From positions 1-22,603 of the IMG/VR virus record IMGVR_UViG_3300021197_001211: DNA of 22,603 nucleotides. The stretch is one strand, 5' to 3'. Below the pieces are notes generated by a model, which worked only from the letters and a program-made list of their open reading frames with translations, ran no database searches and was not told where the DNA came from. A program made the position numbers and the translations under genes. Positions 2,306 through 22,139 of the stretch are shown one piece after another. The stretch comes from a virus. How positions within the stretch are numbered: the first letter of the stretch is position 1; each line of letters starts with the position of its first letter.

Positions 2306-2336
2306 CCACACCCACACTAATTTTCAAGGAAAAAAA

Positions 2337-2701: not shown

Positions 2702-2709
2702 CCCTAAAC

Positions 2710-2752
2710 GCCAACTTTCACCGATTGCAATACTCGGACACTGGAAGTTGGC
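2710..2752. repeat. inverted repeat between convergent genes
   Basis: GCCAACTT (2710-2717) is matched by AAGTTGGC (2745-2752), with a 27-nt loop, in the gap where the rightward 2337 gene meets the leftward 2752-2946 gene. A bidirectional transcription end is possible, but the long loop and missing U-run make this weak. Confidence 0.35.
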
Positions 2753-3170: not shown

Positions 3171-3918
3171 ACTCTTTGATCCCCTCTTGGTTGTACGGCA
3201 GGTACAGGTCTTGCTCACGGCACTTGATACCGACAGCCATCGCCTGCTCGTTCTGAGCGTCGGCATAGGCTATGGCTTCATCCGATAGGGTGTAGACGCC
3301 AAACGGATATGGGTGAGCCTTTTCCTGCGCCAAGAAGTAAAACTTCTCAGTTGGCAGGCCAACGGCTCGACAGCCAGCCAGATAGTACGCAGCCTGCTGA
3401 TGGTATCGGAACGTATTGATCGCGCTTCTAAATCCTTTGGGTGAAGCGTCACGGCAGGTCTTGAGATCCCAGATGTCAGTGCCAGTGTGCCAGTCGAGCT
3501 TGCCCTTGCACGGCTGACCATTCCAGACCCAACACAACGTCAGCTCGACGCGATGCTCTGGCTTTGGAATGAAGTCGGAAACAACCTCACGGCGCTCCAT
3601 GCAGATGTCGTACATGTCCTGTTTGCAGGCAGTGCGATCACCCAAGTCTTCCAGCCATTCAGCATATTCAGACTTGCCAACCTTGGTGCGCTTATCAACC
3701 GCTGGCTCGATGGCGAACTCGTCAAAGAACTTGTGGTGCTCCAAGAACACGGTGTGCTGCACCCTGCCTTCGAGCAAAGCGGGGGAGTTGTTGAACACTT
3801 GGTTTTTCCAAGTGTATGGGCACTTAGCTATCGAGCTGAGATCGTGAGATCGCCACGCAGGGATCGAATCGTATGTGGGGTAGTCGAGGTCTTCGTAGAT
3901 ACCTACTTTGAAATCCAT
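3148..3918 (-). CDS. RecE-like PD-(D/E)XK exonuclease
   Basis: A 256-residue nuclease of the RecE C-terminal / putative exodeoxyribonuclease VIII type. Visible blocks: a helical entry motif GRVQHTVFLE (residues 51-60), the first acidic metal ligand D142 in GKLDW, the D-x-K pair D151-x-K153 in IWDLKTC, then YHQQAAYYLAG (172-182), a helix with the conserved Q that usually follows the K in this superfamily, and FLAQEKAHPYPFGVY. Such enzymes degrade one strand from double-stranded DNA ends to create single-stranded tails for annealing. The location in one leftward operon with an SSB-like protein supports a phage recombination or replication module. No annealing protein (RecT, Erf, Red-beta) is seen in the window. 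The start ATG 3918 follows an AAGGAAAA sequence. Confidence 0.82.
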   Translation of the reverse strand: MDFKVGIYEDLDYPTYDSIPAWRSHDLSSIAKCPYTWKNQVFNNSPALLEGRVQHTVFLEHHKFFDEFAIEPAVDKRTKVGKSEYAEWLEDLGDRTACKQDMYDICMERREVVSDFIPKPEHRVELTLCWVWNGQPCKGKLDWHTGTDIWDLKTCRDASPKGFRSAINTFRYHQQAAYYLAGCRAVGLPTEKFYFLAQEKAHPYPFGVYTLSDEAIAYADAQNEQAMAVGIKCREQDLYLPYNQEGIKEFGLTDLN

Positions 3919-3930
3919 CTGTTTTCCTTA

Positions 3931-4029
3931 TCAAGTGATGATGACCGTCAGGACAAGCGAAAGCAGATTGATCGCTACAACAATGCCAACGCCAATGAAT
4001 ATGGCTACTTTTACGCTGTCTTTGTCCAC
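3931..4029 (-). CDS. 32-residue single-span membrane protein
   Basis: A very short gene that starts at GTG 4029, with a GGAG Shine-Dalgarno 6-7 nt before it. The product is nearly all membrane helix: a charged N-terminus (MDKDSVK) and about 22 hydrophobic residues (AIFIGVGIVVAINLL and the following LVLTVIIT). It lies just before the exonuclease gene in the leftward operon and after a terminator. An ATG further upstream would extend the frame across the terminator hairpin and is less likely. A role in membrane perturbation or superinfection exclusion is only a guess. Confidence 0.5.
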   Translation of the reverse strand: MDKDSVKVAIFIGVGIVVAINLLSLVLTVIIT

Positions 4030-4107
4030 GCCAGTCTCCGAATAGCCCCAGCCTTCGGGCACACGGACTGGGGAACGTGCAGGAAAGAGTATGTTAGCTC
4101 TTGCCCT

Positions 4108-4139
4108 AAAAAACCCCGCCTTCGGCTCAGTGGACGGGG
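4108..4139 (-). terminator. rho-independent terminator, leftward
   Basis: On the minus strand a 7-bp GC-rich stem (CCCCGTC at 4139-4133 with GGCGGGG at 4120-4114, one G-U pair) with a 12-nt loop is followed directly by six T (4113-4108). It lies after the SSB/DUF3310/small membrane protein genes and before the exonuclease part of the operon, so it may partly reduce exonuclease expression. Confidence 0.65.
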
Positions 4140-4167
4140 ACACTGTTGGAGGGTCGTGATGGAACCC

Positions 4168-4275
4168 TTAGCCAAGACCAAATCCTATCAGCAAACCGAC
4201 ACTAAATGCCCCTATCACGGCATACGAGGTGAAGGTTGGCAATCTGGCCGAATCGACCAATCTGCGGGGGATCAT
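4168..4275 (-). CDS. 35-residue single-span membrane protein
   Basis: The ATG at 4275 overlaps the TGA stop of the 4272-4688 gene as ATGA and has a GGAG Shine-Dalgarno about 6 nt upstream, so translation is coupled. The product has a short basic N-terminus (MIPRRLVDSARLP) and one hydrophobic helix (YAVIGAFSVGLLIGFGLG) that reaches the C-terminus. Basic-in orientation predicts the N-terminus in the cytoplasm. It has no family assignment. It precedes the leftward terminator. Together with the 3931-4029 gene it makes two micro-membrane proteins in the early operon, both short enough to be missed by routine gene calling. Confidence 0.6.
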   Translation of the reverse strand: MIPRRLVDSARLPTFTSYAVIGAFSVGLLIGFGLG

Positions 4276-4688
4276 TTCGACTCCAAGCGTTTTATTTCAG
4301 CGTCGATGTAAAACTTGATCTTCTTCGCGTCACGCAGCTCATCAGAGTGTGATGACTCGCCATAGCGATACGCCGCTCTGAATATCTCACCAACCTGTGA
4401 GTTCATGTTTTTATGCGAGATCAGGTCTTGCAGCTCTTTGGCACCTGCTGGCAGCTCGTAATAGGAAGCGGTGCTGCCGTCGGAAACAGACTTGGCGACT
4501 GCAACCTTCGGCTTAGCTACCCAACTCTTGTTTTTCAGCTTCCAGATCCGCAACTGCTTTCCCGCATAGCTTTCGCTGACTGAGCACTCAACCGCCAAGA
4601 CTTCTGGCTTGGTGAAGCCGTGCTCATCCAGATACTCTCTAACTAACGCGCCCTTGACCGCCTTGCGGTTGTGTCTTCGTTTCGTCAT
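4272..4688 (-). CDS. HTH-like N-terminus plus DUF3310-like C-terminus
   Basis: A 138-residue protein. The N-terminal third is very basic (MTKRRHNRKAVKG) followed by a helix-turn-helix-like stretch (VREYLDEHG, KPEVLAVECSVSESYAGKQLRIW, residues 17-50). After a linker, the C-terminal 65 residues (YYELPAGAKELQDLI, then QVGEIFRAAYRYG, then ELRDAKKIKFYIDAEIKRLE) match the layout of DUF3310, a small domain found in many phage proteins, including T7 gp1.7 as I recall it, of loosely known function linked to nucleotide metabolism. The fusion of a DNA-binding-like head to this domain is mildly unusual. It sits between the SSB-like gene and a tiny membrane protein gene in the leftward early operon. Confidence 0.6.
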   Translation of the reverse strand: MTKRRHNRKAVKGALVREYLDEHGFTKPEVLAVECSVSESYAGKQLRIWKLKNKSWVAKPKVAVAKSVSDGSTASYYELPAGAKELQDLISHKNMNSQVGEIFRAAYRYGESSHSDELRDAKKIKFYIDAEIKRLESK

Positions 4689-4699
4689 CCCTGACCCCC

Positions 4700-5404
4700 T
4701 TAGAATGGTATATCGTCTTCAAATTCATCTTCGACTACTGGTGTTTCCGCCTTTGGCTCTTCCGCAACTGGCTCTGGCTTGTTACCGCCTTTGGCCATTG
4801 CTGCTTGCAGCTCGAAGCATGGATCGATCTTGTCTTTACCCGGTTCGTCGCACCCACCAATCTGCCACTGCATGAAGCGGGGTAGCTCCTCGAAGATGTC
4901 GCAGGCTTTCTTGCTGGCTTCATCAGACTCGCCAGTGAATTCCTTGCAGTAGTCCTCAAGGTCGAAAATGGTCTGGTCGTTCACGGTAGCGGCTTTCTTT
5001 GCACCGCCGTCCGCGCAGAACACGCCTACCACTTTGGCGTTACCGCCACTGGTTAAGCCGACATCAACCTTGCAGGTTGTGCCCAAGATTTTGGTGAGGT
5101 CAAAAGACTTCAGCTCTTCTTCAGTGAACGATTTGTTGCGCCATGCCTGCAAGTGCTGACGTAGCTTGGCCCGTTCATTCAGGGACAGCGTGTATTGGCA
5201 GTTGATCGACATAGGTCTGTCATCTGCCATACGCAGCTCTGGCAGTTCCCAGAAGATAAATACGTTGTGACGCTTATTCACTTCGCCTTGGTATTCGTTC
5301 ATTGTGGTGCCAGCGTCAACCAACTTGTAGCAAATTGCGTTGTGGGTTCCAGTTGGGACTTGCTCAAAGTCTCCACCGCCACCACCTGATGCTATGATTC
5401 CCAT
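4700..5404 (-). CDS. phage single-stranded-DNA-binding-like protein with acidic SSB tail
   Basis: A 234-residue protein. The start ATG 5404 is chosen over one eight codons upstream because AAGGAAAA lies just before it. The N-terminus is Gly-rich (IIASGGGGGDFE), followed by GTHNAICYKLVD, a FIFWELPE segment and the YTLSLNERAKLRQHL/WRNKSFT/EELKSFDLTKILG block. I recognise this pattern from phage proteins annotated as ssDNA-binding. The C-terminus is a Pro/Glu-rich linker ending in EDEFEDDIPF, the classic acidic SSB tip that recruits partner proteins. It is the first gene of the leftward early operon with a RecE-like exonuclease downstream, and it diverges from the primase gene. It probably coats ssDNA during replication and recombination. 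Confidence 0.7.
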   Translation of the reverse strand: MGIIASGGGGGDFEQVPTGTHNAICYKLVDAGTTMNEYQGEVNKRHNVFIFWELPELRMADDRPMSINCQYTLSLNERAKLRQHLQAWRNKSFTEEELKSFDLTKILGTTCKVDVGLTSGGNAKVVGVFCADGGAKKAATVNDQTIFDLEDYCKEFTGESDEASKKACDIFEELPRFMQWQIGGCDEPGKDKIDPCFELQAAMAKGGNKPEPVAEEPKAETPVVEDEFEDDIPF

Positions 5405-5432
5405 CGCGTTTTCCTTGTGTAATTGCAAAAAG

Positions 5433-5469
5433 GTGTACTATTATGCACATCTTGGAAAACGTGATGCAA
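5433..5469 (-). promoter_or_regulatory. leftward early promoter between SSB-like and primase genes
   Basis: On the minus strand TTGCAT (5469-5464) and CATAAT (5445-5440) are 18 bp apart, placing the transcript start about 30 nt before the SSB-like start codon. The -35 box coincides with the Shine-Dalgarno region of the divergent primase gene. A rightward promoter must also lie here; TACTAT near 5436-5441 is a possible -10 but lacks a convincing -35. Confidence 0.4.
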
Positions 5470-5480
5470 GGAAAAAATAC

Positions 5481-7637
5481 ATGGGATTGAAAATAACCGA
5501 TGGTAACAGCAAGGATTTCACTAGGCCGCTGAGCGGTGATATCCGCGCTGACTTCGAGGGATTCCTCGCGGCAAACGGGATGACGGTTGACCCGAAGAAG
5601 GGTTTGGTAGTTGGCGGAGACATTGGCAGAGCCTATATGGAGGTCGGCGGTAGGCAGAAGCTGGTCGGTTGGTATCAGGTCTGGCTCGATCAAGAGGTGC
5701 CGTTTGGCCGCTGTGGTGACCGCACGGTGAGCAATGACGAGCCGATAGCGTCATGGAAACCTGAGAACGCATCCAGCCACAAGATGACCGATGAGCAGCG
5801 GGAGCAGATTCGACTGCTGAGTGAGCAGGCAGCGAAAGACAGGGAAGAGCGGCAGGCTCAGGCAGCAAAGCGAGCGAGGGAGCTGTGGGACAGTTACTCA
5901 GAAGCCACGGATGACAATCCATATCTGAAGCGCAAGGGCGTGACCAACCACGGTTTACGGCAGGATGGCGACAGATTGGTCATACCCGTGCTCGACGCCA
6001 AGCTCAAGGTCGCTGGACTCCAGTACATTGATGACACTGGCGGCAAGAAGTTTTTGCAGGGCACGAAGAAGAAAGGTTCTTTCTTTGTCATCGACCCCGA
6101 ATCAATGCGTCAGGCGCACACCATCAACTACGTCGAAGGTTATGCGACTGGGGCCAGTTACTTTGCCGATTTAAGTCAGCCAGTCGTGGTTTGTTTCGAT
6201 GCCTTCAACCTGTCTCCAGTCGCTGAGACGATCAGCGGCTACTTTCCACAGGCTAAGCACGTCTTTATCGCAGACTTCGATGACTCAAAGACAGGTGAGC
6301 AGGAAGCGATCAAGGCCGCGCAGGTAGTGCAGCGTATCGGCGCTCAGGCCGAGGTGCTGATGCCGCAGAGCAAAGGCGACTACAACGACCACGCCATCGA
6401 GGGTGAGTTGATGCCTGAGCTGAACAGCGTGGAGGTGCCAGTCGAATACGACTGGAACAAAACGGAGAAGGGACGGCTGCTGAACACCAAAGACAATGTG
6501 CGCGGTGTTCTGACGGTGAACCAGATCGATGTGCGCTACAACGTCATCAAAAAGAACATGGAAACGATCATACCGCACACCCAGTTCATCGCTGATATGA
6601 AGGATGAGAGTGCGCTGATTGAGATCGAGGATCGCTGTATACAGATCGGTGTGCCACACCAAAAGGTGCGTGATTACTTGAAGCTGTTGGCGCGGGAGTA
6701 CAACCCAGTCAAAGAGTGGATGGAAAGTAGGCCGTGGGATAAGCGCAGCAGGCTTGCAGACTTCTTGGCAACCATTACCAGCAGCAACGAGCCGCTGAAA
6801 GAGATGCTGATGACGAAGTGGCTGGTTTCCTGCGTAGCAGCGGTGTGTGAGCCGAATGGCGTGGCGTTGGAAGGCATACTGGTGTTTCAAGGGGCGCAGG
6901 GACTGGGCAAGACGTTGTGGTTCAAGCGGCTGGCCGACTACGACAAGGGTTGGCTGTTGGAAGGTGCGACATTGAACCCTAGTGACAAGGACAGCGTGAA
7001 GCAGGCGGTGAGCCATTGGATTGTGGAGCTTGGTGAGATCGAGAGCACGTTCAAGAAGAGCGACATCGATCAGCTCAAGGCGTTTGTCACGAAGAAGAGC
7101 GACGAGCTGCGCCTACCTTATGACCGCGCCAGCACAACCTACCAACGCCGCACAGCGTTCTACGCCTCCGTCAACGCCCGTGAGTTTTTGACCGATACCA
7201 GCGGCAACCGACGCTTCTGGGTGGTTCCCGTCACGGCGATCAACGCAAACCACGGGATCGACATGCAGCAGCTCTGGGCCGAGGTCAAAGAGACGCTCTA
7301 CCCAAACACCGACTGGTACCTAAACCACGAGCAACGAGAGATGCTGCAAGACTCCAACGAATACTATCGCACCCAGTCTAGCGTCGAGGATTTGATCCTT
7401 GAGCACGTCCATTTCCAGAGCACACAGACCAAGCCAGTGCAGATGACAAAGCTGCTGAGAGACCTTGGAATCAGTCAGCCGAGGATGCCAGATATCAAAG
7501 ATGCGAGCAGGGTACTCTCGGCCCACGGGCTAGAACCGCGCAAAAGTAACGGCAAGAAAGTGTACGACTTGGACTATACGAAGGTCGAAGTTGGCAACGC
7601 AGATAAGTTTAGTGGCGCGTGGTCGAAGGATTTCTAA
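5481..7637 (+). CDS. Toprim/VirE-type primase-helicase
   Basis: A 718-residue replication protein. The start is ATG 5481, with an AAGGAA Shine-Dalgarno 7-8 nt before it. Residues 1-100 form an N-terminal domain without an obvious zinc ribbon. A charged coiled-coil-like helix (about 100-140, DEQREQIRLLSEQAAKDREERQ) follows. The Toprim domain spans about 150-310 with E219 (VEGYATG), a VVVCFDAF strand and D265-x-D267 (IADFDD). The C-terminal half is a VirE/SF3-like helicase (PF05272 type): Walker A GAQGLGKT at 471-478, Walker B-like IVELGEIE near 514-520, and conserved GNRRFWVVPV, a typical arginine-finger region. It should synthesise primers and unwind DNA. It diverges from the SSB-like gene and is followed directly by an origin-like region, which fits replisome loading in cis. 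Confidence 0.85.
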   Translation: MGLKITDGNSKDFTRPLSGDIRADFEGFLAANGMTVDPKKGLVVGGDIGRAYMEVGGRQKLVGWYQVWLDQEVPFGRCGDRTVSNDEPIASWKPENASSHKMTDEQREQIRLLSEQAAKDREERQAQAAKRARELWDSYSEATDDNPYLKRKGVTNHGLRQDGDRLVIPVLDAKLKVAGLQYIDDTGGKKFLQGTKKKGSFFVIDPESMRQAHTINYVEGYATGASYFADLSQPVVVCFDAFNLSPVAETISGYFPQAKHVFIADFDDSKTGEQEAIKAAQVVQRIGAQAEVLMPQSKGDYNDHAIEGELMPELNSVEVPVEYDWNKTEKGRLLNTKDNVRGVLTVNQIDVRYNVIKKNMETIIPHTQFIADMKDESALIEIEDRCIQIGVPHQKVRDYLKLLAREYNPVKEWMESRPWDKRSRLADFLATITSSNEPLKEMLMTKWLVSCVAAVCEPNGVALEGILVFQGAQGLGKTLWFKRLADYDKGWLLEGATLNPSDKDSVKQAVSHWIVELGEIESTFKKSDIDQLKAFVTKKSDELRLPYDRASTTYQRRTAFYASVNAREFLTDTSGNRRFWVVPVTAINANHGIDMQQLWAEVKETLYPNTDWYLNHEQREMLQDSNEYYRTQSSVEDLILEHVHFQSTQTKPVQMTKLLRDLGISQPRMPDIKDASRVLSAHGLEPRKSNGKKVYDLDYTKVEVGNADKFSGAWSKDF

Positions 7638-7848: not shown

Positions 7849-8058
7849 GTGGAACGATTCGAGTATGACGATGACGCGAGTGATGAGCAGAACTTTATAG
7901 CGTGGTCACTGATGAATGCCGATGAACGCGACGGCGTAGGGCAAGCGCCTCTTCCGCAGGAAGAGGCGCGGGGGTTGTTTAACGAACTGAAGGAAAGTGG
8001 ATGGCTGATGAGAAGCCGAGAAGAGGCAGACCAAGGAAAGAGCGAAAGCAACTGGTAG
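7849..8058 (+). CDS. small acidic hypothetical protein before terS
   Basis: A 69-residue acidic protein from GTG 7849, preceded by AGAGGAGCGGGAT, a strong Shine-Dalgarno about 7 nt upstream; the frame is also open before this but only through the repeat region. The N-terminus is rich in Asp and Glu (ERFEYDDDASDEQNF), with WSLMNADERDG following, then LFNELKESGWLMRSREEAD. No family recognised. The last 58 nt overlap the start of the terminase small subunit gene in another frame. An 11-bp perfect hairpin lies inside the coding sequence. It may be a packaging accessory or simply a leader for terS. Confidence 0.55.
   Translation: MERFEYDDDASDEQNFIAWSLMNADERDGVGQAPLPQEEARGLFNELKESGWLMRSREEADQGKSESNW
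7945..7969 (+). repeat. perfect 11-bp stem, 3-nt loop hairpin
   Basis: GCGCCTCTTCC (7945-7955) and GGAAGAGGCGC (7959-7969) flank a GCA loop. It is unusually strong for coding DNA. GGGGGTTGTTT follows, with only a short mixed T stretch, so an intrinsic terminator is possible but imperfect. It lies 32 bp before the terS start codon. Confidence 0.65.
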
Positions 8059-8528
8059 AGACGCCACAAGCTTTCGTTGCGGATGACGAGGCAGGCATCA
8101 CAGACATGCAAGCGGCTTTCGTGTGGCACTACACGGAAGGCGCGTGTGGGCAGACAGAAGCTGCGCGGAGAGCGGGGTTCTCGTTTCCTGCGAGCGCAGC
8201 GACCAAGATGCTCAACGGCAACGACTTCCCGAAGGTTACGCGAGCGGTTCGGGTGAAGCAGGATGAGCTGCGAGAGAAGTACGCGATCACGCCACAGAAG
8301 ACTGGCTCGATGCTATGGAACATAGCCGAGACTGCATTCGAGAGCGGAGCGTACAACGCAGCGGTGAGTGCAGTGAAGGAGCTGAACCAGCTCGCTGGCC
8401 TGACGATCCACCGCAGCCAGAACCTGAACATCAACGCTGACTTGCAGAAGATGACGAAGGAAGACATCAAAAGCAGGCTGAACGAGCTGCTCGGTGTAGA
8501 GTCAGAGATTAATGATAAAGATATGTGA
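8001..8528 (+). CDS. terminase small subunit
   Basis: A 175-residue protein. The N-terminus carries an AT-hook-like basic motif (RRGRPRKERK, residues 7-16). The helix-turn-helix domain follows: ITDMQAAFVWHYTEG (33-47), QTEAARRAGFSFPASAATKML (about 51-71) and VTRAVRVKQDELREKYAI, the layout of phage terminase small subunits (Terminase_2-like). The remainder is helical and suits oligomer-ring formation: SMLWNIAETAFESGAYNAAV, then LNQLAG. TerS rings bind the packaging site and bring in the large subunit. No large subunit follows; instead a methyltransferase gene starts inside the stop codon. The AGGAAAG sequence before ATG 8001 supports the start. Placement at the end of the early rightward block, before a non-coding region, is consistent with nearby packaging initiation. 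Confidence 0.78.
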   Translation: MADEKPRRGRPRKERKQLVETPQAFVADDEAGITDMQAAFVWHYTEGACGQTEAARRAGFSFPASAATKMLNGNDFPKVTRAVRVKQDELREKYAITPQKTGSMLWNIAETAFESGAYNAAVSAVKELNQLAGLTIHRSQNLNINADLQKMTKEDIKSRLNELLGVESEINDKDM

Positions 8529-9025
8529 TGATGGAAAAGAAAATTCTTGATGCCTGCTGCGGTGGGCGAATGATGTGGTTCGACAAGACAGATGACCGCT
8601 GCCTTTTTGCTGATTGCAGAGAAGGCACTTTGGATGTCAGTCATTGCACAGTGAATCCCGGCAAGAAAGAAGTTAAGCCGGATCAATTGCACGATTTCCG
8701 TGATATGCCATACGAAGACGAATCGTTTCATCACGTCGTTTTTGATCCGCCACACGTTCGCAATTTGTCTATGAAGTCGGTGACTGGCTTTAGTTACGGC
8801 TCTTTAGACAAAGAGACTTGGCAAGATGATTTACGGCTGGGGTTTTCTGAATGCTTCCGAGTTCTTTGTCATGGCGGCACGTTGATATTCAAATGGAACG
8901 AGGTTGATATTCCTTTGCGAGAGATTCTGGCTTTGACAACAGAAAAGCCTTTGTACGGGCATAGGTCTGGCAAAAAAGCCCAGACGCATTGGGTTGCCTT
9001 CTTAAAAGGCAGTGTGAGCGACTAA
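8528..9025 (+). CDS. phage class I SAM-dependent methyltransferase
   Basis: A 165-residue methyltransferase. Motif I is the glycine-rich SAM loop DACCGGRMMWFD near the N-terminus; acidic D/R residues (FADCREG) follow. Motif IV is DPPH, in VVFDPPHV, where most N6-adenine or N4-cytosine DNA methyltransferases have DPPY/F/W. Later, FRVLCHGGTLIFKWNE corresponds to the strand-4/5 region. The size fits small phage methyltransferases often annotated as adenine-specific, but the His in motif IV leaves the target base open. The likely start is ATG 8528, overlapping the terS stop as TGATG; ATG 8531 and GTG 8525 are alternatives. It may protect phage DNA from host restriction or mark DNA for packaging; both are inference. 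Confidence 0.75.
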   Translation: MMEKKILDACCGGRMMWFDKTDDRCLFADCREGTLDVSHCTVNPGKKEVKPDQLHDFRDMPYEDESFHHVVFDPPHVRNLSMKSVTGFSYGSLDKETWQDDLRLGFSECFRVLCHGGTLIFKWNEVDIPLREILALTTEKPLYGHRSGKKAQTHWVAFLKGSVSD

Positions 9026-9583
9026 CCTCGTCGGTTTTACGCATTGGCGGAATGAACATCGTTCTGGCCCCGCCTCCCGCCCAGCCCCTCAAAATCTCGG
9101 AAAAATGCCGATATTATGTTAAATTGGGGGAAATCCTAATAAAATCAATGCGTTACGCGCCGCGAAAGCGGCGCTCTGGTTGCGCCAAGACTGCGTGGCT
9201 CTGAGCAGGGCCGATACGGGCTAGGTCATCACCCACCCTCGACTGGTTTATCGCGCACCTGACGGCTCACAGCGCCGCATCAGGCGATCCCGTGCGCGGC
9301 AGTAGGAACCCTATAGGGTCGGAAAAAGCCTGAGAGATCGATCTGTGGCGCGACCCCCGTACACCCCTATATGGCGAGCGCGGCGAGCGCGATAGCTATA
9401 GCAAGGTTTGGCGCACTCAGTATCCAAAAATTTGTATGGGGAAAGGTAGGTACCCTGCCCATCCGATTTTTGCGGGATGATCAAAAATCAAGGGGTGGAT
9501 GAGCAGGGTTTGATCCGAAGATCAGGGCAAAGGTAACCCCCCAAAAATTTTATTTCTATTTTTTTTTCGCATAAACTCGCCCG
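9026..9583. other. 558-bp gene-free region rich in dyads; candidate packaging or control region
   Basis: No credible gene is visible on either strand. Contents in order: a GC hairpin with GAAA tetraloop (GCGCCGC-GAAA-GCGGCGC, 9157-9174); a bulged dyad CCTGACGGC / GCCG..TCAGG (9258-9284); a 12-bp palindrome ACCCTATAGGGT (9308-9319); a tandem 9-mer GGCGAGCGC (9373-9381, 9382-9390); a palindrome ATAGCTAT (9392-9399); a GTACCCTG copy (9450-9457), the same 8-mer as in the candidate origin; a long inverted repeat (9453-9508); and an A/T-rich run up to the next start codon. Adjacent to terS, this is a candidate pac/cos region, or a control region for the late rightward block. Which one cannot be told from sequence alone. 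Confidence 0.5.
9453..9508. repeat. long nested imperfect inverted repeat
   Basis: The outer arms CCCTGCCCATCC (9453-9464) and GGATGAGCAGGG (9497-9508) pair at 11 of 12 positions. The inner arms GATTTTTG (9465-9472) and CAAAAATC (9482-9489) pair perfectly around 9 nt. A 7-nt bulge (9490-9496) separates them on the right side. The left arm overlaps a GTACCCTG copy. This could be a cruciform, an RNA structure or a protein-binding site. Confidence 0.6.
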
Positions 9584-9994
9584 ATGGCAGATTCAAGAAA
9601 CAAGGGTGCGACATTCGAGCGCGACATCGTGAAGCGCATCAATGCGTTTGCCGATCAACATGCCCTTGGCTTCACCTGCAAGCGTAACCTCGACCAGTAT
9701 CAAACCGCTGACCTTTGCGACATCCAGATCCCGCGCCACTCGATTGAGTGCAAGGCGTATAAGTCTGGCTGGTGGTATGCACCCGCGTGGTGGGATCAGG
9801 TCTGCGCGGCTTGTGGCGACAACACGCCCATTTTGATATACAAGTTCAACAACAAAGCGATCAGGGTATGCCTGCCGCTCTACGCGATTAACGAAAACAT
9901 GGCGCGAGATAACTCTCGGACAGCGGTTATCACTCTCGATGAGTGGTTTGACCTGCTGAAAGAGAGCTTTGACGGCCAACGAGAGGCTGCGTAA
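9584..9994 (+). CDS. PD-(D/E)XK endonuclease, Holliday-junction-resolvase-like
   Basis: A 136-residue nuclease. The N-terminus NKGATFERDIVKRI gives E12, the helix-borne acid of Hjc-like resolvases. D46 (LCDIQI) and E55-x-K57 (SIECKAYK) complete the PD-(D/E)XK site. A following aromatic stretch (SGWWYAPAWWDQV) and PILIYKF strand also fit. Phage enzymes of this type resolve recombination or replication branches before packaging. The ATG 9584 has no Shine-Dalgarno and follows a long T-rich tract, so the message could be leaderless; CATAAA 15 nt upstream is a weak -10 candidate. It is the first gene of the late-looking rightward block and ends in TAATG overlapping the next start. RusA-type resolvase is less likely. 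Confidence 0.72.
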   Translation: MADSRNKGATFERDIVKRINAFADQHALGFTCKRNLDQYQTADLCDIQIPRHSIECKAYKSGWWYAPAWWDQVCAACGDNTPILIYKFNNKAIRVCLPLYAINENMARDNSRTAVITLDEWFDLLKESFDGQREAA

Positions 9995-10464
9995 TGGCAG
10001 GCATGGACGATATCGACATATTCGACAACCCATTTCGTGACCCAGTGTACGAAGAGCTTGGTTTTATCTTCGATCCAGACCGAAACCAATACTTTGAAGT
10101 GATCGAAGACCCCGAATATGGCGCTATGCGCCGATATTATTCGCCTAGAGACCGCGAACCTGTGCCTGAGTTAAGCGATGCGCGTATGGCTTTCGATGAA
10201 CAACTTCAACGAGAGGACATGGCGCGGTATTTGTCTCAAATGGGCGCTCTGAAAGGTTTGGTTGGCGGCGTCTCCGATGCAGACATGAGTCGTTTTGGCC
10301 GCTTGAAGTCTAAAACGATGAAAAGCAAAAAAATGCGAGACAATAAAAAGCTGAAGGCTATGAAGATGGCTCGCCTCATGAGTGAAATTGGCATAGACAC
10401 TAACGCTAACAGCGGTGGTGGTGTGGGAAGCTTAGAAATGGACTTGTTCAGGCGCAGCCGATGA
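9994..10464 (+). CDS. hypothetical protein with N-terminal DDIDIFD motif
   Basis: A 156-residue protein, acidic at the front and very basic at the back. The N-terminus MAGMDDIDIFDN carries a motif repeated at the start of the next protein and again inside it. Residues 15-50 contain aromatic/proline-rich blocks (DPVYEELGFIFDPDRNQYFE, RRYYSPRDREP). Residues 90-130 hold a lysine/methionine-rich stretch (SKTMKSKKMRDNKKLKAMKM) that could bind DNA. Its start overlaps the nuclease stop by one base (TAATG) and its stop overlaps the next start as ATGA, so it is co-translated with the giant ART protein. A virion-associated DNA-contacting or chaperone role for the 1707-residue protein is a reasonable guess. 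No family recognised. Confidence 0.6.
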   Translation: MAGMDDIDIFDNPFRDPVYEELGFIFDPDRNQYFEVIEDPEYGAMRRYYSPRDREPVPELSDARMAFDEQLQREDMARYLSQMGALKGLVGGVSDADMSRFGRLKSKTMKSKKMRDNKKLKAMKMARLMSEIGIDTNANSGGGVGSLEMDLFRRSR

Positions 10465-13400
10465 GCAGTTTTGACGATATCGACATATTTGGCGCTCCTC
10501 CGGTTACTGGCTCGACCCGTGATCGTGATTTAGATCGCCTTGAGCGCATGGTTCGTGGTCGATATATCGATCCGCTTGAGCAAAAAGCCAAAGACATGGT
10601 TAAAAATCAGGTTGTGCAGGCTCTGAGTGGCATCGAAGGCTTCACGGGAGCCGCGATAGCTCAAGTTGTTGCGCTTGCAGACTCCCCAGACCCGAATGAC
10701 AAGCTGGTTTTCAACCAAATCGCGTCTCGTTTGAATTTGCCGATCAATATTCGGCGCATGGGCGACGATTATATGGCTTCAAAGCGGTTTGAGGGTGCCT
10801 TGGGCCGTAATTCTAGCGTCGATGTGTCCGCCTATCGGCCAGATGAGGGTGAAACCCAGTACGGTTTGAGTGCTCAGAAGCGTTTTCCTAACCTTTTGGG
10901 CAAAAATTCGTCTGCTGGCGTGTCAGCGCGGGTTTCAACGATGGGTGACCCTGAAATTGGGGCCAGATTCGAGAAAAGATTTGCTGACGGCGGTGAAGTT
11001 GACATCTTTGAAGCCGAAGCACCGCGCAGGAGTCCAGACGCCTACCGCCGCGACGGTTCTCTCAAGTCTCAAACTGGTTTTTTAGGGCCGATTATCAACA
11101 AGCACAGCGGCAAACCGATGACGGAGCTGTCTATTGGCGTTGAGATTGGTGGTCGAGAGGTCGAGATACCCTCTATGGTGCCGACTTTGACCAAAGAAGA
11201 GCGTATTTTGCTGCAAAATTTGCGTATTGGCGTTGATCCAATGCCTAAAAGCATTGTTATCAAGGCCAAGCGTCACGCTATGGAGCGAATTAAGGCTGGT
11301 TTGAATCCTTTTTTGCCTGCTGAGCCGCAAAATATGAACCTTGGCGGCTCTGTCAGCACGATGATGGGCAGAACGCCTGAGCCTGAGCTTCCCAAGCTTA
11401 CTCCAGCCCAGCTTGCGAACATCGGAGGGGCTTTTGCAGACCCTCTGGGCATGGTTGACATCACGGGTGAGTACCCTGAGTTCCCCGCAGCGGGTGTTTC
11501 TACTGCTGAGATGGTTATGCAGGGGCCAAGATCGCCCAGTTTGATGGAAAATTTGCGCGAAGGAGACTTTGGGGCAGCGGCGCTTCAGAGTGTGGGGGTA
11601 ATTCCCGTCGTTGGAGGCGCTGCGAGGGCTATTCGAGGCGTTGCAAAGGGTGCAGACCGTCTTGCGAAGGCTCAAAAGGCTGGTTTTGACACCGATACGG
11701 TGTATTACCATGCCACGGATAGGTTTGCAGACTCAGAATCTGGGGAATTTGCCCAGTTACGTCCTTCTGTAAGCGGAAAACTAGGGCCGGGTATTTATTT
11801 ATCGCCTGATGCTAGTTACACGCAGAAATACATCCGTCGATCTTACAGATCAGACACTGAGGAGCCGCCTTTCGGTGAGGGTGCCCGTGTTTTGCCGGTT
11901 TTTGTGCGCGGAAAGGTAGGTACTAGAGAAGATTTTGGCGAAGCAGTCGAGAGCATCAAGAAAAACGCATCAGACAAAACAGATTTCAAAACCATCAAGC
12001 GTCAAGCCCAAGAAAAAATGGCAGACGATGGCTTTGCTGGGTTCAAGGTGCAGGATGAGCTTGTCATTTTCGACCCCAAAAACATCCGCTCGGTGAACGC
12101 TGATTTTGAAGACCTTGATTCGCCTGAATTGTTGAAGGCGGAGGGTGGGGAGATACGCAAGTTTAGCAAGGGCGGCATCCTCGACCTAATCGTCAAAGGT
12201 GATTTCGACCCACGGTTTGACCCACGGGCAAAAGAGCAAGATATGCTCCGCAACCTAGAGGCTGAGATCATTGGCAGCAATTACACGCAGCCTATGCCTC
12301 GGTTGGCGCTATCAGAGCTTGAAGGCGAAGACTTTGTCACCTCGATGTCTGACAGAACCCGTGCAGGAGGTGATGTTAAAAGCATCAACAGGGTGCAGTT
12401 GGTCGATCCGATTCACCTGCCGGGCGGTCAGGACTTTATGTTCAACAACCCCAGCGCGGTTTGGGCGTCTGCAAAAGCTCCTGCCGCCAAAATTTTAGAG
12501 TTGGCTAGAGATTTGAGGTCTAAGTCTGGCAAAGACCCGCTGTACATCCCGTGGCGCATGGCTCCGACTGGCGGCGACTTTTCTACAACGACAGGCGAGC
12601 TGATGCTCGGCTATGCCGCAGCCAACATGACCAAGGCGACAAAGAAAGCCTTGGACAAGGCTATGAGGTCTTATCGCACCACAGGCAGCATGGTTAAAGG
12701 CAAGCGCGTGAACGCTGGGCTAAAAGTTGAAGGTTGGAAAGGCATAGATGACCCCAGCTCGGTAGAAGTCTGGCGCAACACTCCAGACCCAATTCGCAAA
12801 GAGCTGATGACCATGATGGACGTTCAGTTCCGCGACAAGGGCGGGTTGTCGATTGGTGCTGCGCGATTGATTAACGCAGACCCTAAGCAGCTTGTAGGTC
12901 GAGACGCTGGTATTCAAAACGTAGGCCGCATCTTTGCCGACATCGATATATTCGACTCGGCTCACCCTTCGTACCCGTTTGCAGTGCCCGGCGGTGGTGT
13001 TGGTGTCCTTGAAAACGCAAGCGCAGCGACAGTGTTTGATTTATTGCCAAAAGCTAGGTTTGGTGCAGCGAAGAAAAAAGTAAAAGATCCAGCCAACCCT
13101 ACTGCCCAAGAAATTAGATCCCTTCAAAATCCAGCTAGATCAGGCACGATCACTGAGGAAATCTTGCGCCGCATGGAGGCTCGCGGTGTAGACGTAAACT
13201 CTATAGCGGGTCTGACGGGCGGCGCTTTGACGTTCACGTTGCTGTCCGCTGGCTTGGTTACACCGCAAGAGGTTCAGGCTGGTGCCTTGAAAGAATTTGG
13301 CAACAGTCTGCGTAAAGCCGATGAGATGGGCCTGAAGACCGATCAAGTCCTATATCACGGCTCTACGTTTGATATCGAGGAGTTTGTCGCAAGGCCAAAC

Positions 13401-15584
13401 AGCAATAGCGACTTTGGTGACGGCACTTACCTGACCATATCTCCGAGTGACGCTTCCCGTAACTACGCAGGCGAAGGGCCAGACCTAACGAGCCGAATCA
13501 ACTCGCTTTCTGAAAGCATACAAGAAAGCTTGGAAAGTGACTGGGATCTAAACCCAGACTTTTGGGACAAGATAAACGACCCAGAGGTATTTGCTAAACT
13601 CGAAAAGCTGGTCGATGAGTTTGAGGAAAATGGTTACCGAGAGGCGCTTGAAGAAGCCGCTAACCTCGCGGCCACATCTATTTTGAAGGGGCCAAACGAG
13701 GGCGTGATATACCCTGTCTTCGTAAACAACAAAGACTTTGCTGTCATCGGCGGCAAAAACAGAACGGTTATTGATATTGATAAAACACAATATTACGACG
13801 CCGCCGAAGAAGAAATATTCCGAACGGACTTTGATAGCGATGAGGCTTATGAGGACGCTATATTCGAGTACGCTCAAGAACTCGAAAACACCGACTATGA
13901 AAGTCCCATTGCAGAACTTTCATACAGTCTTAGAAGTGCAGGGGCTGGTGATGAGGTGGTCGGTCGGGTAATTGACTCAGCTATGGAAAGCGGTCAAATC
14001 GATTTGAGCGAGATGAATGATCTCATTCGCGGTTCTTACAACGAGGATTTTGACACTGGCGAATTGTTGAATAACGGCCAGATTGTGCAAAACGTGTTAA
14101 TCGACCTTGGTTACAAGGGCGTTGTTGATAACACAGTTGGTGAAAGGTTTGCAGGCATGGGTGCAGGCAAAATGCACACCATCGTATTCCCCGGTAACGA
14201 AAACCTGATTCGCTCAATAAACGCTAAGTTTGACCCCGCAAAAGCTGACTCGCCCAACATACTCGCAAGCGCACCACCGATATTGGCGCCGATTGGCGGG
14301 GCGACATTTCTCGCTGCCACGGCTTTGTCGGCGCAAGAAGCTCAAGCTGGAGGCTTGGGTAGTCTCAAAACAACTATAGACAAAAGTCGTGAACAAAGCC
14401 TCAAACAAGCCAAAGAGCAGGGCTATGACCTCGATAACGTCATGTACCACGCCAGCAAGCAAGACATCGATGAGTTTGTGCCGGGTTATGATGACGGTCT
14501 TGTTTTCCTGACCCCAAGCAAAGAGTTTGCAAATAACTGGCTTGGAAAAGGCAAGTTTCAAGAAAGGCAAGGCGGCACTGGTGCCATTGAAGGCGTGAGG
14601 GCAGAGAAAAAGCAGTTCAATAAAGAAGCAAATGAGATACTGGAATCACTGCCAGAAGATCAACGCAGCCAGTATTACCTAGAGGTTTTGAATCCCAAAA
14701 GCCAACAACTACTTCGAGAGGAACGAGAGGCCGACAGCGCCATCTACCCCGTTGTTACTAGGGCTAAAAAGCCATTTGTGCCAAGTAAAGATTTTGGTGT
14801 CTTGGAAGAGCTATTTGGCGAAGAGCGTTTCAATGCGCCATTCGGCAGCGGCTTTCCTACATACAAGGATGCCTTAAAAGACGGCAATTACCTTATGTAT
14901 GAAAACAAAGAGGTAGTAGATTTCTTAAAGACCAAGGGCTATGACTCTATGTTCTTGAAAGAAAGCTCTGGCGCAGATGAGCCGTTCACTACGTTGGCCG
15001 TTTTCGAGCCTTCCGATATCCGCTCGGTTAACGCTAAGTTTGACCCTAAAAAGAAAGGTTCCCCCAAGATACTGGCAAGCGCCCCGTTTGCCGCAGGACT
15101 AGGCGCGATGGGCGCTATGCAAGAAGCTAGGGCTGCGACATCGCAGGCAGAAGGAGCGCCGTTTGAGGTCGCTTTAGACGCCCTCACAGCCGCAGGAGCG
15201 CCGATTGTCGGCGGTTTGGCAGGGTTGGCTGAGTTTACGCAAGGCTTGCCACGCAGGATTGCAGGCGATCTTACTGATGAAGAATCTGCTGCTCGGATCA
15301 AGGCGTTGCGTGAAGGCGTGAGTGGTGCGTTGAACTACGACCCCACCAGCGAGATAGGTCGTGAGATCAGCCAGAAGGCGCAAGAAGGCATTGCTGGATT
15401 GTTGCAACCGATAGTCGAATCTGCAAAGCCGCAGGTTGAAGACTTATTGGATTACATACGCGCAGATGAGCAGCGATATACACCGCTTGGCGCGTTATAT
15501 CGAGGCGGCAAGTACGTTTACGAAGACATCTTCGGTGAGCCAGAGCGAGAGGCGACTAAGAGCGCAATGGACGTGGCTATTTAG
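10461..15584 (+). CDS. giant polyvalent protein with three ADP-ribosyltransferase-like domains
   Basis: A 1707-residue protein, by far the largest here. The N-terminus repeats DDIDIF. Residues about 100-180 hold two beta-rich repeats with alternate small and aromatic residues (RFEGALGRNSS, RFPNLLGKNSS). A domain at about 195-285 has GFLGPI, EIPSMVPTLT and a basic KAKRHAMERIKAGLNPF segment, seen in other phage internal proteins. Three ART-like modules follow at about 410-552 (VYYHAT, GPGIYLSP), 960-1262 (VLYHGS, GDGTYLTIS, acidic insertion) and 1325-1530 (VMYHAS, GLVFLTP); each ends with a DxIRSxNAxF strand. A phage-type domain about 600-870 (IPWRMAPTGGDF, DVQFRDKGGLSIG, HPSYPF) lies between ART1 and ART2. 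The H of YH and the Y of IYL/TYL fit the H-Y-x ART class. Such polyvalent proteins are thought to be packaged and injected to modify host targets. Confidence 0.75.
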   Translation: MSSFDDIDIFGAPPVTGSTRDRDLDRLERMVRGRYIDPLEQKAKDMVKNQVVQALSGIEGFTGAAIAQVVALADSPDPNDKLVFNQIASRLNLPINIRRMGDDYMASKRFEGALGRNSSVDVSAYRPDEGETQYGLSAQKRFPNLLGKNSSAGVSARVSTMGDPEIGARFEKRFADGGEVDIFEAEAPRRSPDAYRRDGSLKSQTGFLGPIINKHSGKPMTELSIGVEIGGREVEIPSMVPTLTKEERILLQNLRIGVDPMPKSIVIKAKRHAMERIKAGLNPFLPAEPQNMNLGGSVSTMMGRTPEPELPKLTPAQLANIGGAFADPLGMVDITGEYPEFPAAGVSTAEMVMQGPRSPSLMENLREGDFGAAALQSVGVIPVVGGAARAIRGVAKGADRLAKAQKAGFDTDTVYYHATDRFADSESGEFAQLRPSVSGKLGPGIYLSPDASYTQKYIRRSYRSDTEEPPFGEGARVLPVFVRGKVGTREDFGEAVESIKKNASDKTDFKTIKRQAQEKMADDGFAGFKVQDELVIFDPKNIRSVNADFEDLDSPELLKAEGGEIRKFSKGGILDLIVKGDFDPRFDPRAKEQDMLRNLEAEIIGSNYTQPMPRLALSELEGEDFVTSMSDRTRAGGDVKSINRVQLVDPIHLPGGQDFMFNNPSAVWASAKAPAAKILELARDLRSKSGKDPLYIPWRMAPTGGDFSTTTGELMLGYAAANMTKATKKALDKAMRSYRTTGSMVKGKRVNAGLKVEGWKGIDDPSSVEVWRNTPDPIRKELMTMMDVQFRDKGGLSIGAARLINADPKQLVGRDAGIQNVGRIFADIDIFDSAHPSYPFAVPGGGVGVLENASAATVFDLLPKARFGAAKKKVKDPANPTAQEIRSLQNPARSGTITEEILRRMEARGVDVNSIAGLTGGALTFTLLSAGLVTPQEVQAGALKEFGNSLRKADEMGLKTDQVLYHGSTFDIEEFVARPNSNSDFGDGTYLTISPSDASRNYAGEGPDLTSRINSLSESIQESLESDWDLNPDFWDKINDPEVFAKLEKLVDEFEENGYREALEEAANLAATSILKGPNEGVIYPVFVNNKDFAVIGGKNRTVIDIDKTQYYDAAEEEIFRTDFDSDEAYEDAIFEYAQELENTDYESPIAELSYSLRSAGAGDEVVGRVIDSAMESGQIDLSEMNDLIRGSYNEDFDTGELLNNGQIVQNVLIDLGYKGVVDNTVGERFAGMGAGKMHTIVFPGNENLIRSINAKFDPAKADSPNILASAPPILAPIGGATFLAATALSAQEAQAGGLGSLKTTIDKSREQSLKQAKEQGYDLDNVMYHASKQDIDEFVPGYDDGLVFLTPSKEFANNWLGKGKFQERQGGTGAIEGVRAEKKQFNKEANEILESLPEDQRSQYYLEVLNPKSQQLLREEREADSAIYPVVTRAKKPFVPSKDFGVLEELFGEERFNAPFGSGFPTYKDALKDGNYLMYENKEVVDFLKTKGYDSMFLKESSGADEPFTTLAVFEPSDIRSVNAKFDPKKKGSPKILASAPFAAGLGAMGAMQEARAATSQAEGAPFEVALDALTAAGAPIVGGLAGLAEFTQGLPRRIAGDLTDEESAARIKALREGVSGALNYDPTSEIGREISQKAQEGIAGLLQPIVESAKPQVEDLLDYIRADEQRYTPLGALYRGGKYVYEDIFGEPEREATKSAMDVAI

Positions 15585-17276: not shown

Positions 17277-17506
17277 GCGCCCAAGCAAAGAAGGTTTTCT
17301 ACAACCGAGTGCGCCGCACCTGCCTGAAGCACGACATCGACATTGTGTACGATGGGATGCCCAAGGCGGTGTACGGCGTGGAGTTGGTCAAAGACGGTCA
17401 GGTGATGTTCGCTGACCGCAGCACCGATAACATGCCGCTCGATATCAACTGGCAGCGGCTGCACGAAGAGATGGCCGACTATGGCTACAAAGGCGGTGTG
17501 AAATGA
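17273..17506 (+). CDS. small hypothetical protein between the leader gene and the recombinase
   Basis: A 77-residue protein. The GTG at 17273 overlaps the preceding TGA as GTGA, and its own stop overlaps the recombinase ATG as ATGA, so translation is coupled on both sides. The sequence has a basic N-terminal helix (KKVFYNRVRRTCLKH), a beta-rich middle (DIVYDGM, AVYGVELVKDGQVMFADRS) and a C-terminal helix with WQRLHEEMADYGYKGG. No family recognised. Confidence 0.62.
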   Translation: MSAQAKKVFYNRVRRTCLKHDIDIVYDGMPKAVYGVELVKDGQVMFADRSTDNMPLDINWQRLHEEMADYGYKGGVK

Positions 17507-18294
17507 GCGGCAACCCACTCAAGCAAATAAACAACATCTACGGCTACGTCCGCGTATCGACAGATGAGCAGGTCAAGTCTGGCATCTCATTGGAGACGCA
17601 GAAGCAGCAGATCAGCGAGTTTGTGCGCGAGAAGTACAACCGTGAGGTTACCGAGTTCTTTGCAGATGAGGGTATCTCTGGCACCCATGCGGTGCTAGAT
17701 CGACCCGCCAGTCGAGATATGACTGACGTGATTGACCGTCATGACGTGGTGATCTGCACTCGGCTTGACCGATTGAGCCGCTCCAGCTCTGACCTGTTGG
17801 GCCTGATTCCTGTGCTGCAAGACATTGGGATCACCCTGTACTTCTGTGAGCAGTTTGGTGAGATGCCGATTGTCTACCCAGACGCAGGCAGATCGAAGGG
17901 CTTGGATGCCAAGTTCGATATGAACTCGATGGCCAACCAGATCATGCTGATGGTGTTGTCAGCGGTTGCCGAGATCGAACACGCGACGATCAAGGATCGC
18001 TTCGCGGCAGGTAAGCTTGACTGGGCATCTCGCGGCTACGCCATCGGCGGATCAGCTCCGTATGGCTTTAGGCACGAAGAGGTCAAGACGGGCAGCAAGA
18101 CCCGCAAGAAGCTGGTCGAGGTACCCGAAGAGCAGGTGGTGTTGAAGACGATCTACAAGCTGCACAAACGCGGTCTTGGCCCTCGCAAGATAGCCAAGCA
18201 GGTCAACAGTATGCACAACATACCGCCGCTCACGCATTCCAAGGTGCAGCGGATTTTGAACCGAAAATTTCAGGGTGTTCCTGACGCCGCTTAG
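17503..18294 (+). CDS. serine recombinase (resolvase/invertase family)
   Basis: A 263-residue site-specific recombinase. The resolvase catalytic domain spans about 12-165: YVRVSTDEQ with nucleophile S19, QKQQI, ADEGISG (typical DxGxSG), DRP, and the conserved TRLDRLSRS with basic active-site residues. The long E-helix with MLMVLSAVAEIEHATIKDRF follows. Residues about 172-260 match the start of the 'Recombinase' domain (GSAPYGFR, LHKRGLGPRKIAKQVN), ending in VQRILNRKFQG. At 263 residues it is longer than Tn3-type resolvases (about 185) but shorter than large serine integrases (450 or more), lacking their zinc ribbon and coiled coil. It could integrate the phage, resolve multimers or invert DNA. 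A dyad 7 bp after the stop is a possible site. It overlaps the previous gene as ATGA. Confidence 0.85.
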   Translation: MSGNPLKQINNIYGYVRVSTDEQVKSGISLETQKQQISEFVREKYNREVTEFFADEGISGTHAVLDRPASRDMTDVIDRHDVVICTRLDRLSRSSSDLLGLIPVLQDIGITLYFCEQFGEMPIVYPDAGRSKGLDAKFDMNSMANQIMLMVLSAVAEIEHATIKDRFAAGKLDWASRGYAIGGSAPYGFRHEEVKTGSKTRKKLVEVPEEQVVLKTIYKLHKRGLGPRKIAKQVNSMHNIPPLTHSKVQRILNRKFQGVPDAA

Positions 18295-20509: not shown

Positions 20510-21322
20510 ATGGCAGTTATTTTAGGTGGTCTTAAAGATTACCCTGTAATTTTTTTAAGCAAGTCTCAAACTTTTGTCCCGCCTTTAGATGGCAATGTTT
20601 GCATCCATGTTATTGGCGCGGGTGGGAGTGGGTCTGGCGCTAACAGCTCCTCGGTTAATGGTGGTGGTGGAGCAGGGGGGTACTGTAAGAAAAACAGTCT
20701 AGCCGTTACTACATCTAGCTCGTTTACTGTTGTTGTTGGGGCAGGTCATAAACCTACTACAACAAATCAAGCGGGGGGTAATGGCGGCAATTCTACTGTT
20801 GCCGGTACAGGTCTTTCATCGACTTTGACTGCCAATGGAGGCACAGGGCATCCAAGGACTGATGCAACCTCTACTGCCGCAGGTGGAGCCGCCTCAAATG
20901 GAGATGTCAACAACACAGGCGGGGCTGGCGGAAAGTTTAGAGGCGGTGGTGCTGTTGGAATAGGAGGCACAGGCGCTCAAGGTTTCGATGCCGGTGGAAA
21001 CCCCGGAGATGGCGGTCAATCAATGGGCGGGTCTTGTGATGTTTTGGGGGATCTTTGGCGTAGTTCTTTAGGAGAAATTGCAGGGGGGCTTCCCGGAGTA
21101 GGGTGTTATGACAACGATGGATCTATGAGTTTTTTTCAAGCTAATGCTGGGCCTCTGTCTGGTGGAGGAGGTAGCGTCATAGGTGGTCAATATTGTTATC
21201 CAGTCGGCGGCGCTGCACTCATTGGAGGCGGTGGGGGCCGTTGTTATTACGGACAAGGAACTTGGGGGCCATTAGGAGGCCGTGGTGGTCAAGGTCTAGT
21301 AATTTTTCAGTACATACCATAG
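20510..21322 (+). CDS. glycine-rich tail adhesin, copy 1
   Basis: A 270-residue protein beginning MAVILGGLKDYPVIFLSKSQ. It has TFVPPLDGNVCIHVIGAGGSG, then extensive Gly-rich runs (GGGGAGGYCKKNS, QAGGNGGNS, GGAGGKFRGGGAVG) and ends GPLGGRGGQGLVIFQYIP. This is a 'Gly-rich' phage adhesin-like domain comparable in style to polyglycine receptor-binding tips (T4-like gp38). Polyglycine sandwiches present short variable loops that bind host surface receptors. AGGAGATTTAAC precedes the ATG. It lies directly after the fibre and is paralogous to the next gene. It has several cysteines, two of them next to aromatics. Compared with replication genes, it uses many T-ending codons. Confidence 0.75.
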   Translation: MAVILGGLKDYPVIFLSKSQTFVPPLDGNVCIHVIGAGGSGSGANSSSVNGGGGAGGYCKKNSLAVTTSSSFTVVVGAGHKPTTTNQAGGNGGNSTVAGTGLSSTLTANGGTGHPRTDATSTAAGGAASNGDVNNTGGAGGKFRGGGAVGIGGTGAQGFDAGGNPGDGGQSMGGSCDVLGDLWRSSLGEIAGGLPGVGCYDNDGSMSFFQANAGPLSGGGGSVIGGQYCYPVGGAALIGGGGGRCYYGQGTWGPLGGRGGQGLVIFQYIP

Positions 21323-21332
21323 GAGATTGAGT

Positions 21333-22139
21333 ATGGCGGTTATTTTAGGCGGTACTAAACAATTTCCTACATTTTTTCTGACCAGTTCTCAGACTTTTGT
21401 GCCGCCAAAAGACGGCAATGTAATGATTCATGTTATTGGTGCAGGTGGAAGTGGATCTGCCTCTAACTCCCAAACTACCAATGGTGCCGGAGGAGCAGGT
21501 GGATATTGCAGGAAGAATAGTTTAGCTGTCACCACCTCTAGCTCTTTTACGGTTGTTATTGGAGCAGGTCATGTACCTGTCCAAGTAAACCAAGCTGGTG
21601 GCAATGGAGGTAACTCTACGGTTGCTGGAACAGGCTTATCAGCCACTTTGACCGCTAATGGCGGTACAGGTCACGATAGAACAAATACAGCAACAGATGC
21701 CCCCGGAGGCTCTGCATCCAATGGTGATGTTAATTATACAGGAGGTGCTGGTGGCAAGAGCAGAGGAGGCGGCGCTGTTGGATTAACAGGCACAGGAGAG
21801 CAAGGTTTTGAAGCATCGGATGGTAGCTCCGGCATGAGAATGGGTGGTGATTGCGACATTATAGGCGACTTTTGGTCTTGTTCTTTAGGGCAAATTGCCG
21901 GAGGTCTTCCGGGTGCTGGCTGCTACGGTGGTGGTAACGCACAGGGTTTCAAGAATGCTGATGCTGCGCCTCTATCTGGTGCAGGAGGCGTTGGCATAAG
22001 TTCTGGGTATAACTATCCGACAGGCGGTAATGCGTCTATTGGTGGTGGCGGTGGCGGTGCTTACTTTGGAACAGGAACCTATGGGCCGTTAGGTGGGCGT
22101 GGCGGTGAAGGCATAGTCATTTTTCAGTACATACCGTAA
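21333..22139 (+). CDS. glycine-rich tail adhesin, copy 2
   Basis: A 268-residue paralogue of the 20510 gene, sharing MAVILGG, the QTFVPPxDGNVxIHVIGAGGSGS block, the GGYCxKNSLAVTTSSSFTV block and the end GPLGGRGGxGxVIFQYIP, with the same order and nearly equal length. ATG 21333 is chosen for AGGAGATTGAGT upstream. Variation concentrates in loops between glycine runs (for example FWSCSLGQIAGGLPGAGC against LWRSSLGEIAGGLPGVGC at similar places; NAQGFKNADA is replaced). This fits tandem duplication followed by diversification for receptor binding. Which copy sits on the virion, or both, is not clear. Confidence 0.75.
   Translation: MAVILGGTKQFPTFFLTSSQTFVPPKDGNVMIHVIGAGGSGSASNSQTTNGAGGAGGYCRKNSLAVTTSSSFTVVIGAGHVPVQVNQAGGNGGNSTVAGTGLSATLTANGGTGHDRTNTATDAPGGSASNGDVNYTGGAGGKSRGGGAVGLTGTGEQGFEASDGSSGMRMGGDCDIIGDFWSCSLGQIAGGLPGAGCYGGGNAQGFKNADAAPLSGAGGVGISSGYNYPTGGNASIGGGGGGAYFGTGTYGPLGGRGGEGIVIFQYIP

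Follow-up and report, generated by a model that had tools for sequence, protein, structure and literature searches.

What does a phage do with a protein that carries three modules resembling ADP-ribosyltransferases (ARTs) in one chain, and how might such a protein reach its targets? The question is raised by the viral record IMGVR_UViG_3300021197_001211 (IMG/VR), which was analysed whole (positions 1 to 22,603; hereafter the window, 22,603 bases). Positions 10461-15584 of the plus strand, on which all features of this protein and of its upstream neighbour lie, form a single open frame from an ATG and encode 1,707 residues. We consider it reasonably probable that the product is an injected, modular, host-modifying cargo protein, in which a canonical mono-ART is joined by two ART modules that are non-canonical yet conserved.

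Architecture and family assignment

From the reading frame, Pfam searches and the comparison of relatives, the protein can be partitioned into NT, PRE, ART1, MID, ART2, ART3 and CT. ART1 (residues 406-562; 11676..12146) is delimited by PF18760, AlphaFold, Foldseek and conservation, and bears the motifs VYYHAT, GPGIYL and DELVIFDPKNIRSVNA at residues 414-547. It is followed by MID (12141..13205), a domain of ~344 residues that was delimited by profile searches and has no Pfam match. A hydrophobic linker ending in VQA-G (13209..13283) leads to ART2 (13308..14285; VLYHGS, GDGTYL and MHTIVFPGNENLIRSINA at residues 963-1255), and a second linker, SPNILASAPP...EAQA-G (14250..14351), leads to ART3 (14400..15095; VMYHAS, DGLVFL and TTLAVFEPSDIRSVNA at residues 1327-1525), both modules being assigned by PF18760 and conservation. 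The linker between ART3 and CT (SPKILASAP...EARA-A; 15060..15137) is homologous to the preceding one, and all three linkers were defined by their sequence and by comparison with relatives. CT (15108..15581) matches no family and differs among relatives. A preliminary description had proposed a single 1,707-residue chain with three modules, and the open frame, motifs and positions agree with it. The third of the 'G-x-G' strands that it listed, GLVFL in ART3, is without Tyr; the insertion that it noted in ART2 is indeed acidic (51 D/E versus 16 K/R in 220 residues) and mainly helical, but comprises nearer 210 residues than 150.

Searched against Pfam, the whole protein matches PF18760 (ART-PolyVal) in three stretches with 51.3 bits (E 2.7e-13; curated cut-off 31.2 bits), and no other Pfam family exceeds its cut-off anywhere in the chain. 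When the modules are cut out singly, PF18760 is the best match of each, at sub-cut-off scores of 20.8 (ART1), 28.6 (ART2) and 27.5 bits (ART3). It is also the most widely matched family among relatives, where it is found in 9/10 members for ART1, 7/7 for ART2 and 6/6 for ART3, with best E-values of 6e-7, 4e-8 and 7e-8, respectively. An NCBIfam search of the protein returned no match, and PDB sequence searches with the whole protein, with ART1 alone and with alignment profiles gave nothing significant; the PARP domain of ZAP, the sole PDB match of the A5 profile, was discarded as being at chance level (E 0.6). The earlier assignment to polyvalent-type proteins with ART domains is borne out by the three PF18760 stretches, which are repeated in relatives, and by a multidomain chain of three ART modules, MID and other regions in a viral record. 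The protein extends the known 'polyvalent protein' class by a well-supported new member and does not represent a novel type of system.

Polyvalent proteins have been described with a single ART or with several, up to 12 in one case (Iyer et al., 2017; PMC5512222), so that the earlier view of three ARTs per chain as unusual has to be abandoned. The ART-PolyVal proteins of that study resemble the window protein in being large multidomain phage proteins with several ARTs of PF18760, large unassigned domains, mosaic architectures and a predicted co-delivery with DNA. They differ in carrying up to 12 ARTs instead of three, and MID and the tagged upstream protein (UP, see below) of the window match no family searched. 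The parallel with T4 Alt that had been drawn is useful as a working analogy, in that Alt is an ART which travels in the phage head and is injected, but does not extend to kinship: Alt has a single ART of the R-S-E clade (PMC5512222), whereas the invariant YH in strand 1 of all three modules departs from the R-S-E active site of the T4 Alt/VIP2 clade.

Predicted fold, triads and constraint

Does each of the modules possess the attributes of an ART? In an AlphaFold model of residues 395-948, ART1 displays the strand order of the ART fold with pLDDT mostly between 74 and 89 in 10-residue blocks (loops 49-65), and MID is poorly modelled. Foldseek searches of the PDB with ART1 placed 9k3a_B, 'Cyanophage A4 pre-ejectosome', at the top (prob 1.00, E 0.011), followed by seven tankyrase-2 PARP structures (prob 0.63-0.87), all E-values being modest (0.011 and up). 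These matches to solved ARTs lend moderate support to the fold that had been suggested for ART1. In a viral library, Pf-WMP3 ORF26 ranked second (prob 0.77). ART2-ART3 was modelled with low confidence (mean pLDDT 47), and a fold search with this model retrieved no ART structure, so that the fold of these two modules is predicted from sequence profiles.

The sequence of 9k3a_B is that of Anabaena phage A-4L ORF27L (1,717 aa; end-to-end match). ORF27L contains LYHGT...GTYFS from residue 1425 and ...TTLVINP ~150 residues on, and the part of 9k3a_B aligned by Foldseek presumably corresponds to this ART-like segment (~1425-1600), as judged by sequence rather than by coordinates. Pf-WMP3 ORF26 (1,495 aa) carries FHGT...AIYLT...TVAIYNP. 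Both are internal proteins of a length similar to that of the window protein, and both have a C-terminal ART-like segment of a shared pattern (YHGT/FHGT followed by x-x-Y, a hydrophobic strand and NP). They differ from the window protein in having one such segment, with H-Y-T, in the lack of detectable similarity elsewhere, and in the location of their genes within the structural cluster. ORF27L (L107:5117-10270, minus strand) is annotated as 'tail protein', and its ART-like H-Y-T segment is not reported by Pfam.

If the third residue is taken to lie four positions ahead of the F in the hydrophobic strand, the aligned triads are H417-Y446-E533 in ART1, H966-Y990-H1239 in ART2 and H1330-F1349-T1511 in ART3. 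In this alignment only ART1 has a canonical triad (H-Y-E); the H-Y-[EQD] triad sought in all three modules is therefore present in ART1 but not in ART2 (H-Y-H) or ART3 (H-F-T). The active site of PF18760 has been described as H in strand 1, Y in strand 2 and D in strand 5 (PMC5512222), from which the window modules appear to differ at the third residue, being E/Q in ART1, H in ART2 and T in ART3. In ART1, this residue is E in 15/16 sequences and Q in 1/16, and the adjacent D of FDP is mostly conserved. Because E/Q is kept while this D is changed to N in several relatives, E/Q is favoured over D as the third residue of ART1. Taken together, the predicted fold and the triad make ART1 activity likely.

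The odd residues of the other two modules are by no means erratic. The H-Y-H of ART2 is invariant down to ~30% identity and is also kept in a Tunturiibacter phage, with the third-position H in 'TKHFIVWQP'; the H, F and T of ART3 are invariant among relatives. An alternative ART1 module of other phages has H, F and V at the corresponding positions. Pairwise dN/dS against the window (Nei-Gojobori, saturated pairs excluded) is 0.07-0.21 for ART1, 0.10-0.29 for ART2, 0.05-0.10 for ART3 and 0.04-0.12 for MID, and ART3 has the least canonical triad yet the strongest constraint of the three ARTs. Together with the invariance of the odd residues, these ratios imply that ART2 and ART3 are not decaying. 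As non-canonical ARTs they may be inactive. Alternatively, all three modules may be active ARTs with different targets, whereby substrate-assisted catalysis would take the place of the missing glutamate in ART2 and ART3. Some PARP-family mono-ARTs do without the catalytic Glu, and strong purifying selection on the three modules, the invariant strand 1 H with an aromatic second residue that is common to all of them, and the recurrence of H-Y-H and H-Y-T in other phages are all consistent with this notion. It has to contend with a third residue of H or T and with the replacement of Tyr by Phe in ART3, and the activity is a predicted one; we regard this scenario as conceivable but tentative.

Modules, linkers and tags among related phages

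Relatives were gathered in four scans that yielded ~45 distinct viral contigs. In another scan, made with profiles, the 'ART3' profile was contaminated by MID, and only matches to MID, ART1 and ART1p as well as YH motifs were kept from it. The module order in relatives is NT-PRE-ART1-MID-ART2-ART3-CT. Full three-ART chains are found in the window and in L001, L035, L037, L045 and L048, ART1 with ART2 only in L003 and L038, an alternative ART1 with ART2 in L004, ART1 with ART3 in L033 and L043, and ART1 only in L039. In L006, L008, L013 and L017, the chain ends after ART1 or the alternative ART1 and is followed by a different large ORF, and in L009, L012 and L014 another domain is fused to the chain. 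Absent modules are excised cleanly and in frame at or beside hydrophobic linkers ending in A-x-A: one seam lies just past the MID/ART2 linker (ART2, and more, absent in L033 and L039), another at the ART2/ART3 linker (ART3 absent in L003, L004 and L038). The comparison shows the chain to be a set of exchangeable modules, with seams at AxA-ended linkers or at joints bearing the DIDIF tag described below.

The AxA endings of the linkers might be read as signal-peptidase sites; Ala-rich linkers easily yield such motifs. The start region of the polyvalent chain varies among relatives, and in L003 the DIDIF-tagged ORF upstream (1182-2168) and the polyvalent ORF (2111-5716), both taken from stop to stop, overlap by 58 bases in different frames. 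An ORF of a Tunturiibacter jumbo phage (L093:1-3846), annotated as 'MutT/NUDIX hydrolase', looks polyvalent and carries a zincin-like HELCHHE and two YHGT...IKS/VKS ART-like segments, one of them related to ART2.

MID, the large unannotated domain between ART1 and ART2, is widespread in uncultured phages, occurring in at least 145 viral contigs and often as a stand-alone gene of ~400 aa; none was found in named or cultured phages. Besides the window copy, its loci include L169:4680-5918, L144:4728-5957 and L163:2414-5896.

MID also holds one site of a short peptide, D-[IV]-D-[ILV]-F (DIDIF), of which 102 occurrences were counted across 2,005 unique ORFs from the contigs analysed. At least 17 of the 102 occurrences represent this single site within MID (six of them scored as 'start' through a nearby start codon), and the remaining ones lie directly after start codons, at extreme chain ends or at joints after GG. 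In the window, a motif scan located copies at the N-terminus of the polyvalent protein (10476-10490), at the MID site (12939-12953) and at the N-terminus of UP (10009-10023), making three DNA matches observed versus none expected in shuffles. UP is an ORF of 156 aa (9994..10464) without a match among named phages, and its 3' end shares 4 bases with the start of the polyvalent protein. In contig G009 the upstream gene is absent, and a UP-like start, AGMDDIDIF, runs directly into the polyvalent NT. DIDIF is spelled by 33 different codon combinations, so that it is conserved as a peptide and not as DNA; this argues for selection on the peptide and against a DNA repeat that serves solely for recombination, though the tag also coincides with seams. 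Our guess is that DIDIF is a packaging or processing tag. Extending this guess, one might picture a plug-board effector carrier, in which the tag (mostly after GG at joints) labels cargo chains and the ends of modules that are to be packaged or processed, the AxA linkers part the ARTs so that they act singly after release, and ART2 and ART3 embody conserved glutamate-free activities (H-Y-H, H-F-T) unlike canonical ADP-ribosyl transfer. We consider this picture speculative and rather doubtful.

Delivery and the roles of the modules

How might the protein reach a host? In the window, TerS (8001-8528) and a PDDEXK/RusA-like nuclease (together 8001-9994) are followed by the polyvalent gene and then by a serine recombinase (17503), and in its own lineage the polyvalent gene lies outside the capsid/tail operon. 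Homologues have structural neighbours: in L132 an ART1-MID gene is flanked by TerL and a virion protein, in L169 a stand-alone MID lies between portal and scaffold, and in L163 a 1,160-aa ORF with MID is located directly upstream of TerL and portal. The gp6 protein (493 aa) of Octadecabacter Antarctic DB virus 2 has a C-terminal ART that shares ~30% identity with ART1; the 'GFDT..YHG' at its entry and the 'FDPSNIRS' at its exit recur in ART1, and its third residue in register is Q (by eye). The protein differs in having a single ART and in the position of its gene between TerL and the tail tubular protein. These neighbourhoods and the match of ART1 to an internal pre-ejectosome protein make delivery in the virion likely, and the earlier proposal of delivery with phage DNA is upheld as probable.

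The phage itself is marine, podovirus-like and probably temperate. TerL of a related 48.9-kb contig shares 56-62% identity with its counterparts in Pelagibacter phages HTVC023P and HTVC027P and in two relatives, a tail-tube-like protein of a related 35-kb contig is common to those Pelagibacter phages and Octadecabacter DB virus 2, and the serine recombinase suggests a temperate habit. Neither ART1 nor MID has a relative among 84,980 cellular genomes, so that neither a host nor a prophage can be put forward; a plasmid search with ART1 gave no match. The serine recombinase/invertase (window 17503-18294) adjoins tail-fibre genes and may serve integration or tail-fibre switching. Two neighbouring paralogues of 268-270 aa (window 20510-21322 and 21333-22139) both match phrog_2295 and tail families.

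We envision a scenario whereby the polyvalent cargo protein is made late in infection, packed in the head beside or within the ejection core, and released with the DNA into the host. ART1, to judge from its fold and triad, would then, early in infection, transfer single ADP-ribose units from NAD+ to a host macromolecule. ART2 and ART3 would most likely be functional, either through glutamate-independent ADP-ribose transfer or only through binding of NAD+/ADP-ribose or a host target, and loss or exchange of modules at the seams would make effector sets differ between related phages.

Conceivably, the ART-like modules have lost their enzymatic role and serve the ejection core chiefly as structural or docking elements, akin to the virion-resident H-Y-T module of A-4L. 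The nearest solved match is a pre-ejectosome component, ART2 and ART3 are without a canonical triad, and conservation is highest in ART3 despite its non-canonical residues, as might befit such a part. Yet ART1 keeps H-Y-E/Q while the remaining module diverges to ~50% identity, a different ART can occupy the ART1 slot, and relatives can do without ART2 and ART3, which is not what one expects of a structural part of the core; a mainly structural role is hence unlikely. Equally improbable, in our estimate, is that the protein is expressed early or midway, acts in the producing cell and never enters the virion: its gene does adjoin replication and nuclease genes and a recombinase, but TerS is close by, homologues sit in structural clusters, and the structural match is to a virion protein. 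An origin of ART2 and ART3 by duplication of ART1, as decoys or as pseudo-copies in decay, would fit their non-canonical triads, common module tails and repeated linkers, but is very unlikely, decay being largely refuted by the strong purifying selection on both (dN/dS 0.05-0.29), by distant relatives that ART2 has of its own in other phages, so that it is no recent ART1 copy, and by profile-profile similarity among the three ARTs that is confined to the module tail; of the decoy idea in the preliminary description, only the missing canonical third residue stands.

More generally, the analysis shows ART modules that lack the canonical glutamate to be conserved and not decaying. The natural series of chains with ART1 only, ART1 and ART2, ART1 and ART3, or all three allows the role of each module to be compared. 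Finally, predicted virion-delivered ARTs of uncultured marine phages are linked to a solved particle component with an ART-like segment, 9k3a_B, through which the idea of delivery becomes testable in a cultivable phage, A-4L.
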